64,000 bases of DNA from Caldilineaceae bacterium (GTDB lineage Bacteria > Chloroflexota > Anaerolineae > Caldilineales > Caldilineaceae): assembly GCA_026708085.1 (NCBI GenBank), contig JAPOVP010000035.1, positions 1 through 64,000 on the forward strand, written 5' to 3'. Positions 50,069 to 55,275 of the stretch are shown one piece after another. The stretch's first letter is position 1; every line of letters starts with the position of its first letter. Position numbers and translations under genes: made by a program. The notes under the pieces were generated by a model that saw only the letters and a list, made by a program, of their open reading frames with translations, had not been told where the DNA came from and made no database searches.

Positions 50069-50983
50069 ATGCTGAAAATCGGAATCGCTGATCTCGATAC
50101 CTCGCACCCGGGGCGCTGGGTGCCGATTCTGCAGGGGTGGGACAGTGTTGCGGTGGCGGCCTGCTGGGACGGCGGCAGCGTGCGGCCGCCGGGCTATGCG
50201 CGGCAGTTCGCGGCCGAGCACAACATCCCGGAGGTCGTGCCCGCGCTGGCGGACATGATCGCGCTGGTCGATGTGGTCTTTGTCCAGGGCTGTAACTGGG
50301 ACCTGCACGTGGAACGGGTCAGGCCGTTCGTCGAGGCCGGCAAGGGCGTCTATATCGACAAACCGCTGGCCGGGAACGTCGCCGATCTGTTGCAACTGAA
50401 GGCGTGGGCGGCGGAGGGCGCGGACATCATCGGCGGCTCCTCGCTGCGCTGCTGTGAGGAGGTCAAGCGGATGCATGCGCAGAGCCAGGGGAGCGATCTC
50501 CACACCATCTTTGCCAGCGGGCCGAACGATTTCTTCAACTACGGCATCCACGTAATCGAGATGGTGCAGGGCGTTATTGGCAGGGAACGCAGCAGCCCCG
50601 CGGTCGCGGTGACACATCTCGGCAGCCATGGATCGGAGCGGCTGCTCGTCGACTATGCGAATGGGCTGCAGGTGGTGCTCGAATTAGGAGCGGCCGGCGG
50701 TTTCTTTCTCTCCGTAAGCGGCGGCAACGGTCGCTGGTCGGCGACCGTCGACAGCGATTTCTACCGTGCGCTTCTGCAGGACGTTGTCGCCCACTTCCGC
50801 GACGAGAGGCCGTTCCCGGCCGACATCGATTTGCTGTGCGAGGCGGTGATGGTGCTGCTGGCCGGTCGTGAGAGTATGCGCCGCGGGCGGCTTACGCCCG
50901 TCCGCGTTGATGAGCTTCGTGCGGACGGGCCGGGCTTTGACGGTCACAGCTTTACTGAGGATTATCGCGCCAGCGTGGGATGA
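50069..50983 (+). CDS. Gfo/Idh/MocA family oxidoreductase
   Basis: LKIGIADLDTSHPGRW N-terminus, VYIDKPLAGNVADLLQL KP motif. Confidence 0.82.
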   Translation: MLKIGIADLDTSHPGRWVPILQGWDSVAVAACWDGGSVRPPGYARQFAAEHNIPEVVPALADMIALVDVVFVQGCNWDLHVERVRPFVEAGKGVYIDKPLAGNVADLLQLKAWAAEGADIIGGSSLRCCEEVKRMHAQSQGSDLHTIFASGPNDFFNYGIHVIEMVQGVIGRERSSPAVAVTHLGSHGSERLLVDYANGLQVVLELGAAGGFFLSVSGGNGRWSATVDSDFYRALLQDVVAHFRDERPFPADIDLLCEAVMVLLAGRESMRRGRLTPVRVDELRADGPGFDGHSFTEDYRASVG

Positions 50984-51324
50984 AACCACCGCGCCGACGG
51001 GTCCGGAGTACTTTCTGCGCCTTATCGGCGAGGTCATCAGCGTAAGCCTGGAAACGGTGGAGATTGTGGCGGGGCTGCCAGAGTTGGGGATTGATGAACG
51101 TGTCTCCGATGGGGAAGACGAATCATGATGGGAGAGCACATAAGAACTCTTGGCATCAAATTGAACTTACATTAGATGAAGGATGAAGGCTCGTAGGGGA
51201 ATCTGGTTTCGAGGTCCTATACCAGTCTTCAGAGAACTGGCTATCCAAGTGGTTCCCCTTGCTTTCGCAGTGCTCAATCAGACAATTTGAAATACCCCAA
51301 TCAACCTCCTTACGGGATCCTCAT

Positions 51325-52680
51325 ATGAACTTCCAAATTCGCCGTACTAGTAGCTCCGTCTCTATTGCGCTGACATTGGCTCTTTGCTTTGCCCTGCTCT
51401 TAAACACTGGCGCCGTTGCAAATGCGCAAGACGACAGCGTCGGAGAGACGAACAATGAGTGCCCCGAGTCTCTCTTACTGAGAGGTAAGGAATTACTTGA
51501 GAAGGCTCCGGATATTTACACCCAGTTCCCAGGCAGGGGCAGTGCCGAGAACGATGTTTCTGAGGATGGCTGGTTTTCGCCGAGACTTCCTGATTGGTTG
51601 GAACTGCAGAATTGGAGCTGGCCTACTCTTGGTTCCAAGTCCTCGGAAGACGAAGGCGAACCTGCACACGATCCTAACGCAAAGGTACCATCTCTGGAAG
51701 TGTCAAGTGAAAGCATACTGAATCCGCAGGAATGGTCAAGCGATTGGATAGAAAAAGCGGAGACTCTCTTAAAGTCGCACGGATTTGAAGACACGGATGG
51801 AGACGGGGCTCTCAACTGGCCTGACGACAGTCCTCTAGTCGGTGGCCAGAATCTGGACATAGTTGTAGTGGCCACTGAGACTTCAGGAGTCGTCATTGGT
51901 TTTGTCCCAGTTGCCGGCGATGCAGTAGATGTAATCGCCATCGTCATAGCAAAGGACCCCATAACTGGTGAGTGCCTTTCCAAGACAGACCAACTCCTGT
52001 TCGCTCTCAGTCTATTGCTGGTTATTCCTGTCTCTGCGGGCACTTTGAAGATGATTGGCAAGCAAATTGGCAGGTCTGAAGTGGATTTGCCCAAAGTATG
52101 GGGAGCCCTTCAGGGCACGTTGGATGAACTGGAATTCGAAACCCACACTTGGTTCAATAGGCTGGACAACAGTTTCTCTTGGACATTTAGAAATGCCAAA
52201 AATCTCAAGAAATTCAATCGGGTCGCCCCAAAGTACAGGAAATATCGCGTAATCTTGGGGAGTGGAGCAACCTCATCTTCCAAGTTAGCTATGGAGCTCG
52301 GCTACCGAACAAAGACGTTTTCCAAGTCCAACTATCGCGACTCCTTGATTACATTCACCGGCCGAAATAAAGATGAAGTCTCAGGGCTTGAAGCGCACCA
52401 CATATTGCCGCAGGGTTTGGAGCAGAAGTTCACAGAAAGCGGCTTTGAAACTATTCACGATCCGCGGTTTCTTGTGTGGGTAGACCCCGCAGAACATCAC
52501 GGTTGGGGTAAGAAGTATAACAAAGCGTGGGAATCGTTTTTCGAAGAGAATCCACGGCCGACCAAATTGGAGATTCTGGAAGAGGCGCAAACGTTGGCGG
52601 AGGATTATGGATATGACGTGCTCTTCAAAACTTCCAGCTGGAATCCCTTCTGGCAGGTTCGTTGGCCGTTTGGACTCTAA
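51325..52680 (+). CDS. Candidate secreted polymorphic-toxin-like protein with pre-toxin (PT-TG-like) segment and C-terminal HNH/AHH-type nuclease
   Basis: Signal MNFQIRRTSSSVSIALTLALCFALLLNTGAVANA; DTDGDGALNWPDD acidic loop; VVIGFVPVAGDAVDVIAIVIAKDPITGE; C-terminal GLEAHHILPQ...HDPRFLVWVDPAEHHGWGKKYNKAWESFF. Confidence 0.72.
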   Translation: MNFQIRRTSSSVSIALTLALCFALLLNTGAVANAQDDSVGETNNECPESLLLRGKELLEKAPDIYTQFPGRGSAENDVSEDGWFSPRLPDWLELQNWSWPTLGSKSSEDEGEPAHDPNAKVPSLEVSSESILNPQEWSSDWIEKAETLLKSHGFEDTDGDGALNWPDDSPLVGGQNLDIVVVATETSGVVIGFVPVAGDAVDVIAIVIAKDPITGECLSKTDQLLFALSLLLVIPVSAGTLKMIGKQIGRSEVDLPKVWGALQGTLDELEFETHTWFNRLDNSFSWTFRNAKNLKKFNRVAPKYRKYRVILGSGATSSSKLAMELGYRTKTFSKSNYRDSLITFTGRNKDEVSGLEAHHILPQGLEQKFTESGFETIHDPRFLVWVDPAEHHGWGKKYNKAWESFFEENPRPTKLEILEEAQTLAEDYGYDVLFKTSSWNPFWQVRWPFGL

Positions 52681-52696
52681 TTGAGTGGACAGAGCC

Positions 52697-53317
52697 ATGT
52701 CTCTAACGAAAAAACTTGACTACAGTGCACTCTTTGAATTGTCCGATCCAATGGCAATAGAGCCCTATCGACTGAGAAGCCGGCTTCCCAGCGATTCCAG
52801 CAAAGGCGGAGTCAATCTGGACCGTTTGTCACAGGGAGACTATCAAGCGAGAGACCCAATTCAATTTGACGTCGCGCAAGGGTCAGAGACTTGTGACATT
52901 TTGTGGACACAACTCGTAACACCAGTTTGCATTTCCGAGCGTGTAGTTCGACTTCTACAGCAGAACGATGTAAGTGGTTGGTCAACGTATCCTGTAGAGG
53001 TCCTGGACAATAATGGCAGATTGCTCGCCGGCTACCATGGGCTTTCTGTTACGGGTGCGATCTGTTTTGCTGATTACAGCCGCAGCACTGTCATCACGAA
53101 GCCTCCCCCTGCACCGCGCGGGCGAAGCTATGACGTCTACAGAGGACTCTATTTCGACGCAGAGGAATGGGATGGTAGTGACATGTTCTGGGTGGGAAGA
53201 GTCCGAGTCGTTGTCGAAAAAGTAAAGAAAGTATTCGAGCAGTACAAAGTCAGCAACGTGTGCTTTACGCCACTTACTGAACGGGAAATTCGAGTCAGGC
53301 ATGTACGGGGCAATTGA
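52697..53317 (+). CDS. Candidate cognate immunity protein (Imm11/Imm43, DUF1629-like)
   Basis: 16 nt downstream of the toxin stop; STYPVEVLDNNGRLLAGYHGLSVTGAICFADYSRS... and AEEWDGSDMFWVGRVRVVVEKVKKVFEQYKVSNVCFTPL resemble DUF1629/Imm11-type proteins. Confidence 0.55.
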   Translation: MSLTKKLDYSALFELSDPMAIEPYRLRSRLPSDSSKGGVNLDRLSQGDYQARDPIQFDVAQGSETCDILWTQLVTPVCISERVVRLLQQNDVSGWSTYPVEVLDNNGRLLAGYHGLSVTGAICFADYSRSTVITKPPPAPRGRSYDVYRGLYFDAEEWDGSDMFWVGRVRVVVEKVKKVFEQYKVSNVCFTPLTEREIRVRHVRGN

Positions 53318-53405
53318 TAACTCAGGTCCGTATGGTTGGCCACAATGACTAGATCACGAAACGGCAAATATAAGATGCTGCCAGACAGACGCGTTGCGTG
53401 AAGTA

Positions 53406-53676
53406 GGCCCCAAAAGCTGGACCACGAGCTAAGTTGCATAATGGAGCAAATCAACCAGCCTGAGGAGGGTCAACACGATGGCCAAGAGGAAGGAGCGACA
53501 CACGGCAGCCCAAAACTTGTGGGCTGCGTCGGAAGCATTTGAAGGCAGCAAAACTTAAAGACACCGCCTTAGCGGTCGCACACCTGCTGAAGAGCGCTTC
53601 GTGCTCTGTTCAGAGCCGGCCGCATTCGTCTAAATGCACCTTATTTTTCCCATTTCGTGGTCTAGCGATTGGGGCC
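53406..53676. mobile_element. 271-bp non-autonomous IS-derived (MITE-like) element
   Basis: 22-bp terminal inverted repeats ggccccaaaagctggaccacga / tcgtggtctagcgattggggcc (19/22 match) around a non-coding interior. Confidence 0.75.
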
Positions 53677-53769
53677 AACCATAAAGAACGTTGACGACGA
53701 GCAAGGCGAAGGGAGAAATAAACACGCCTATCAATATTCAATCACTGATGAGCACTGCAGATGGTGGCA

Positions 53770-54570
53770 TTAAGCCCTTGCCTTTGGCAACGTCTTGCGC
53801 AGGCGGAAGATCAGCAAGAAGGGCAACGACACGATAAGGAAAGAACCGACGACTTGGATAGGTCTGGAAAAAGGCGAATGCTCCAAGAGTTCTGGCGTAA
53901 GAGAGTATAAGGTGTAGTATGCAACCGCTACTAGGAAGAACGTAACACTCTTTCGTTGAATACTGAAGAAAAGAGCCAAACTTGAACCTGTATTGAATAT
54001 CAAGGAGGTTACACCAAAACCCAGCGTTACGTTTAGTATCGCCCACCAGGGGAGCAAGTCGTTCATGGGCCGCACCGCTGCCTCGCCCAATCCAGGTTGA
54101 AACAGACTGAAAACTGCAGGCATGTTCGGGCCTGTAGAACTTAACACGCCCGCATCCCAGGCGAGGAAGAAAAAATGATTGCCTGCACTAGTCAGCATCC
54201 CTATACTACCGTATCCTAACCCGAACAGCATTCCTTCCTGCCACGACAGTTCTTCGCCCTGCTTGAAGAGTTTTACTTCGGTGGCAACAAAAAGGAGGAT
54301 AAGCCACTGGATGCCTTCTGTGAACAGGCCCTTAATAGCCAGACTTGCGGTCCAGTAGGGAAAATTTCCCCAGTCGGGATTAGAGTATGAAAACCTGAGA
54401 AGGTACGGAAGAAGCTGGCCCACAGGTATTATCACAATGTGAACCAAAATATAAGCACCGAGTGCAAAGGGTAATACTTTCCAAGACGAGCGAGTGAGAC
54501 TTTGCCAGACGATTGTAACGACAACGGGGAACGCGAGCGTCAGTAAGAGCTTCGCTGCGAGAGTATCCAT
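53770..54570 (-). CDS. Multi-TM protein, YhfC/PrsW-like intramembrane protease candidate
   Basis: 7-8 hydrophobic segments; FTEGIQWLILL and WQEGMLFGLGYGSIGML resemble glutamic-type intramembrane protease motifs; start trimmed to MDTLAAKLLL. Confidence 0.5.
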   Translation of the reverse strand: MDTLAAKLLLTLAFPVVVTIVWQSLTRSSWKVLPFALGAYILVHIVIIPVGQLLPYLLRFSYSNPDWGNFPYWTASLAIKGLFTEGIQWLILLFVATEVKLFKQGEELSWQEGMLFGLGYGSIGMLTSAGNHFFFLAWDAGVLSSTGPNMPAVFSLFQPGLGEAAVRPMNDLLPWWAILNVTLGFGVTSLIFNTGSSLALFFSIQRKSVTFFLVAVAYYTLYSLTPELLEHSPFSRPIQVVGSFLIVSLPFLLIFRLRKTLPKARA

Positions 54571-54633
54571 GTAACTTGTCTCGATTTCAAGCCTGCCAAA
54601 ATCTGGTAGCCTCATCTAATTGAGGGGGACTAC

Positions 54634-54856
54634 TTCGACTCTGTGCCTATCATGTCGAAAAATGGCGTTACCCACACTGACGTTGCCATGTAAGCCAGGA
54701 AGCAGGCTATGGTCACGGTCCCGAAGAGGAGAGCAGAGAGCGCGAACGTGAGGGCTGATGTTAAGTTGATCGTGAACCTTCTCGACTTGGGCTTTATCAA
54801 GTCTACCTTATCCAGCCATTTGGGAAGAAGGTACTTGAAGAAGAAGGCTGTCCAAA
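54634..54856 (-). pseudogene. 5'-truncated membrane protein gene abutting IS3 end
   Basis: Minus strand reads VIWTAFFFKYLLPKWLDKVDLIKPKSRRFTINLTSALTFALSALLFGTVTIACFLAYMATSVWVTPFFDMIGTESK* with no start codon before the IS end at 54857. Confidence 0.55.
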
Positions 54857-55000
54857 TGACTTGCCCCCGCTGTTTGTATCACCCGTTATGTTAGTCCGAC
54901 AGGGACGGGAACAGGGTCGGCAGGCAAGAGGGCCTCAGGCGCCGGCGGCCGGTAGCCCAGAGTGCTGTGCGGTCTGACCCGGTTTGCGCGTTCCAGGCCG
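54857..55000 (-). mobile_element. IS3-family transposase C-terminal fragment with terminal repeat
   Basis: ANRVRPHSTLGYRPPAPEALLP is the hallmark IS3 OrfB C-terminal tail; terminal TGACTTGCCCCC at 54857. Confidence 0.8.
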
Positions 55001-55275
55001 CAATGCGATAATGCTCCCGATTCAGCTTTCGGCCACCGCTGTCCGCCCGCCTCACCGGTCACCACGCCAACGACCAAGGGGCATCGCACAACCTTCATCT
55101 CCCTGCACACGCGCCTACTCCGCCGCCATCCCCTGCGCAGGCTCCTGCGCCCGTGTTGACGCCAACCGCAACATCTTTGCCCAGGCAACCGTTCGCCCGG
55201 CACACCTTCAATCTGTGTAGAGTTCTCTTCGCCATATCCTGATTCCCTTTCCATTCAACGAAGGAGACAGACACA

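Follow-up and report, generated by a model that had tools for sequence, protein, structure and literature searches.

In Myxococcus xanthus, the gene for an AHH-type nuclease, MXAN_0050, is followed by an Imm11 gene, and the nuclease is neutralised by its Imm11 partner MXAN_0049 (PMC12077181, PMC12077131), the prototype of Imm11 (PMC12077181). SitA toxins depend on N-terminal escort domains (PMC8546572). CdiA toxins exploit the ABC permeases DppBC, MetI, RbsC and GltJK (PMC9291907), and another class of polymorphic toxins is exported by the Sec route (T2SS/Sec class, Zhang et al. 2012, PMC3482391). Here we analysed a 64,000-nucleotide stretch of a Caldilineaceae genome (contig JAPOVP010000035.1, hereafter the window), with Caldilineaceae MAGs as the nearest relatives bearing a name. 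It encodes a putative nuclease toxin and its putative immunity partner. The following features were assigned:

51145..51324, + strand: leader region, conserved 5' of the toxin gene of genome G009 and part of a mobile unit
51325..52680, + strand: toxin gene, 451 aa
51325..51429, + strand: signal peptide, about residues 1-35, cleavage near ANA-Q, by sequence inspection
51463..51744, + strand: variable stalk or linker, residues 47-140, with long repeats in its place in relatives
51745..51885, + strand: SBP_bac_5-derived piece, residues 141-187 (helix, DTDGDG loop, strand)
51883..52041, + strand: PT-TG pre-toxin domain, residues 187-239 (PF14449, E 1.8e-7)
52204..52644, + strand: AHH/HNH-type (DUF2380/SitA6-like) nuclease domain, residues 294-440, with EAHH at 356-359 and His391
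52697..53317, + strand: Imm11-type immunity gene, 206 aa, without signal peptide

Like MXAN_0050/MXAN_0049, the window holds an AHH-type nuclease gene followed by an Imm11 gene, and the predicted immunity fold matches MXAN_0049. Unlike that pair, which relies on T6SS delivery, the window toxin carries a Sec signal, PT-TG and an SBP-derived piece, and the window proteins score under the PF14412 and PF07791 cut-offs. SitA6-SitI6 is similar in that the window nuclease is nearest to DUF2380/SitA6 in profile space and follows a variable-free N-terminal carrier. In contrast to these lipoprotein toxins, the window toxin has no lipobox, and its partner is of the Imm11 and not the double_CXXCG type. 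As in CdiA toxins, an entry-type module lies just before the nuclease, and relatives of the gene are found between dppB-like and dppC-like genes; there is, however, no two-partner CdiB/CdiA carrier, and receptor use is conjecture here. A captured SBP piece is not described in the literature cited here. With the Sec-exported polymorphic toxins the locus shares signal peptide, stalk, pre-toxin domain, HNH-fold nuclease and Imm11, but differs from them in the SBP-derived segment and in residence within an importer operon. The toxin class is known (Sec-exported polymorphic toxin, AHH-type nuclease, Imm11 partner), while the carrier feature is new.

The toxin and its nuclease domain

The initial annotation had given the toxin ORF 452 aa; the ORF stands, whereas the length is 451 aa, since the earlier figure includes the stop codon. 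The Sec-type signal peptide that it proposed was recognised by inspection (MNFQIRRTSSSVSIALTLALCFALLLNTGAVANA-Q), and its pre-toxin TG module scored above the curated cut-off of PF14449. By pattern search, neither the window toxin nor the true N-termini of its homologues contain a lipobox; the single match (L042) lies upstream of the likely start. Membership of the SitA6 family (TIGR02269) was rejected, given scores of 15.1 and 18 bits against an equivalog threshold of 85.75 and the missing lipobox. Two cysteines are retained in the mature toxins, one near residue 46 and the other, Cys217, in PT-TG. They are the sole cysteines of several homologues and may form a disulfide.

At the C-terminus, the described EAHH...H pattern was confirmed, with its His residues invariant among 15 homologues. 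The invariant positions are A357, H358, H359, D379, P380, W385, H391, Y398 and W402. The [AG]HH element (A357-H358-H359), the downstream His (H391) and the Tyr (Y398) are therefore present; the published AHH motif also comprises N and a further H. When isolated nuclease domains were compared with profiles, DUF2380 matched 15/15, SitA6 (TIGR02269) 14/15, HNH_2 12/15 and AHH (PF14412) 3/15, the best E value among these three being 0.0086 and the window member remaining unmatched, below the cut-off. The window domain itself gave weak matches to DUF2380 (E 3e-4) and to the SitA6 model. An AlphaFold2 model of residues 294-440 (pLDDT ~90) comprises a strand at 356-359 (EAHH), a second strand at 383-386 and a helix at 388-408 bearing His391, which is the order of elements expected of a beta-beta-alpha metal site. 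Both the profile matches and this predicted order agree with what had been anticipated, and assignment of the C-terminal domain as an AHH/HNH-type nuclease is supported by homologue profiles and model. A fold search against the PDB with the whole-toxin model gave nothing below E 2.7; about 60% of the model is of low confidence, and the search is uninformative because of this disorder.

The immunity partner and its association with the toxin

The 206-aa ORF starts 16 nt past the toxin gene, as noted before. Its resemblance to Imm11-type proteins was borne out by the predicted fold, although the sequence profile match is sub-threshold: the model (pLDDT 86) matched MXAN_0049 in Foldseek with E 4.3e-7, probability 1.00 and TM 0.61, while PF07791 gave E 7e-4 and 19.3 bits against a cut-off of 22.1 bits. 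The homologue beside an Rhs version of the toxin (L049) scored 23.6 bits and hence exceeded this cut-off. No match was obtained among the sequences of solved structures. An Imm11 profile search of the window's own genome also returned no match, the known copy included, and is uninformative. Predicted fold and homologue evidence together support the assignment of the partner as an Imm11-type immunity protein.

The toxin is encoded in 10 of 17 genus genomes (the window's own included), each of which also has the immunity gene. Against the nearest homologue, a copy outside the operon in G009, dN/dS was 0.23 for the toxin and 0.13 for the immunity gene. The pairing is therefore not due to chance, and the partner is conserved downstream. 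Toxin and immunity trees agree in their main groups. In an eleventh genus genome (G010), we found an immunity remnant (L053:5535-5913) severed by an insertion sequence (IS) end, and this end recurs at window 54857-54983. As a separate observation, G004 encodes an Imm11-type immunity gene without adjoining toxin match (L043:7448-8137, - strand).

Outside the genus, a toxin relative was detected in G083 and an Rhs-borne one in G248 (L125). The nuclease profile matched 2 of 399 sampled genomes of the phylum, the window's own among them, and no relatives were found in viral contigs or plasmids. N-terminal carriers range from the ~90-residue linker of the window toxin to several hundred residues of repeats (G004, G011, G013); short-type toxins of ~388 aa occur in G002, G005, G007 (broken) and G016. 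The nuclease and the same kind of partner also occur on Rhs carriers in G013 (L049, at the protein end) and G248. That is, one nuclease domain is found on short, long, repeat-stalk and Rhs carriers. Carrier swapping is a hallmark of polymorphic toxins. Since the same nuclease-immunity pair rides Rhs carriers elsewhere, it is a polymorphic toxin module; N-terminal trafficking signal, pre-toxin domain, C-terminal toxin domain, downstream immunity gene and varied carriers are all present.

An importer operon occupied in relatives

Within the window no delivery module is in view, as previously stated, but in seven congeners (G002, G004, G005, G007, G013, G015 and G016) the pair lies inside an ABC-importer operon, between two permease genes and in the same orientation. 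The operon was found in 16 genus genomes, of which 7 are occupied and 9 empty. By Pfam, permease 1 comprises BPD_transp_1 and BPD_transp_1_N (DppB/OppB type) and permease 2 BPD_transp_1 and OppC_N (DppC/OppC type); around the permeases, the operon encodes two ATPases that contain oligo_HPY domains, a binding protein of the SBP_bac_5 family and a glycosidase of family 4. In the nine empty operons of the genus the permease genes are 41-153 bp apart without insert, and six genomes of other genera likewise carry the operon without it. The empty spacer shows no conservation, so that no exact insertion point is definable. The window's own genome has its operon copy, empty, on a different contig (L040). 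A 622-aa protein of this operon (L040:3162-5030, - strand) has CarboxypepD_reg and several CXXCH heme-type motifs, which is unexpected among importer genes.

Occupancy differs within two well-supported sister pairs (G015 occupied, G010 empty; G005 occupied, G001 empty), so the cassette has been gained or lost at the site more than once. G013 carries two cassettes in tandem. In its upstream immunity gene (L048:9289-9873, - strand), the Imm11 N-terminus continues in frame into a second copy of the permease-1 end, and this duplicated end (residues 273-342) is 97% identical. The fusion is probably a product of cassette recombination at the site.

A segment of the toxin resembles the binding protein of this importer

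Residues 141-187 of the toxin match the SBP of the operon in its own genome with 56% identity (E 5.8e-9); the next match of any kind in this genome has E 0.2. The 6.2 Mb genome contains 75 SBP_bac_5 matches, an unusually rich importer set. A profile-profile comparison between the piece and the operon SBP yielded E 6.9e-15 over 58 columns (E for a single comparison). The overlap with SBP_bac_5 covers only ~45 residues and not the whole binding-protein domain. In line with an SBP origin, residues 142-183 weakly matched (E 0.021) a periplasmic alpha-galactoside-binding protein among sequences of solved structures. A generic DxDxDG motif is unlikely to be the cause of the match, other SBPs being unmatched. 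Since the segment is also present in operon SBPs of other genera, transfer was likely from SBP to toxin.

Identity of the window toxin to its relatives is 79-87% over the piece and 30-71% over the stalk. In the two most distant comparisons, identity was 79-83% for the piece versus 53-66% for the nuclease. dN/dS of the piece was 0.10 (G009) and 0.04 (G007), values to be read with dS saturated in some comparisons and with short segments. Purifying selection and better conservation than the stalk indicate that the piece is kept for a function. It is absent from short-type toxins, four of which sit inside the operon, and is therefore not required for residence there. PT-TG proteins from other families of the class (7 loci) had no SBP piece and no importer-gene match in their short flanks. 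Judging from these genomes, SBP piece and importer arrangement seem restricted to this genus.

Proposed role of the cassette

The pair probably encodes an exported nuclease toxin and its immunity protein. Of the two alternatives in the initial annotation, the compact, exported nuclease of bacteriocin-like type agrees better with the data than an orphan toxin module, since conservation and constraint extend to the part that acts as carrier. Export, nuclease activity and immunity by binding would follow strong precedent; cleavage of DNA and immunity by binding are supported by the neutralisation of the nuclease MXAN_0050 by MXAN_0049. No Omp85 was detected in the window's own genome (controls were positive), which makes outer-membrane exchange by TraAB, the delivery route of SitA6, unlikely and export straight outside a single-membrane cell probable.

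We propose that the cassette serves antagonism between related bacteria. The toxin would leave the single-membrane cell directly by means of its Sec signal, and once it is inside a sensitive cell, DNA would be cut by the AHH/HNH-type domain at its C-terminus, while the cytoplasmic Imm11-type partner would bind the nuclease and protect producer and kin. Residues 141-240, i.e. SBP piece and PT-TG, probably constitute the entry module and may engage the permeases of the importer whose binding protein they resemble. As the SBP piece precedes the nuclease and the gene lies, in relatives, between Dpp/Opp-type permease genes, entry through the importer permeases is a reasonable conjecture, which we put forward tentatively. 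The most far-reaching version, with a probability of roughly 0.35, is that of an exported nuclease whose entry module was captured from the importer SBP and which, as an exchangeable cassette between permease genes, is coupled to its own receptor.

At least as likely, though itself somewhat short of even odds, is an exported nuclease in which the SBP piece acts merely as a calcium-binding structural brace for PT-TG, its place in the operon being due to co-expression or to a hot spot of insertion rather than to receptor use. The shared segment indeed has the DxDxDG loop typical of calcium binding, and the four operon-resident toxins without the piece also fit this reading. The variable intergenic spacer of empty operons is as expected of a tolerant insertion site, and the duplicated permease-1 end in G013 points to recombination there. 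However, the piece matches only one of the 75 SBP_bac_5 proteins, namely that of the operon which hosts the cassette in relatives, and in distant comparisons it is better conserved than the nuclease; both observations speak against a mere brace.

The window locus

The window pair is not part of the importer operon. It belongs to a mobile unit in common with G009 that extends from 51145 to ~53606 (83.5% DNA match), and upstream synteny with relatives stops at 50983. Between 50984 and 51131 we found a 3' gene remnant whose end recurs often in congeners (18 matches in G004); by eye, though not by profile, the remnant looks like the C-terminal end of a restriction-modification enzyme of type ISP. 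IS-like debris follows downstream of the pair. At the site equivalent to window 50983-55220, G002 carries a DarT-DarG toxin-antitoxin pair (L113:6787-8113), so the locus is a site of conflict-gene turnover. Two further observations concern this region: a 281-aa membrane-protein-like ORF at 53770-54615 (- strand) without Pfam or NCBIfam match, and a 528-bp segment (53576-54103) that is 97% identical in G005 (L111:52-579).

The adjoining gene remnant and IS debris, together with the immunity remnant of G010, which the same IS end has truncated, might indicate that the pair has left the operon and is now a functionless, decaying relic. We consider this improbable, since neither frame is broken, the catalytic residues are retained and dN/dS against the non-operon G009 copy is low (0.23 and 0.13). 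Even less credible is that the nuclease is secreted so that the cell can feed on DNA outside it, is expressed along with the importer and has a partner that guards the producer from leakage. The export signal and importer-operon residence would fit this reading, but it is at odds with a distribution that is patchy, with stalks that change fast, with the occurrence of this nuclease on Rhs carriers, with the cassette-like tandem array and the Imm11 partner, and with an operon that is intact without the pair in nine congeners.

Implications

How exported toxins cross the membrane of their target is understood for few systems, and receptors have usually been found by mutant screens. In the case of the proposed importer-coupled nuclease, the genome itself points to a candidate receptor, the permeases of one importer. 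If this reading is true, receptor choice would evolve through capture of a binding-protein segment, and entry would be directly testable. AHH-Imm11 kin-discrimination modules, studied in myxobacteria, would then also reach a Sec-exported carrier in Chloroflexota.
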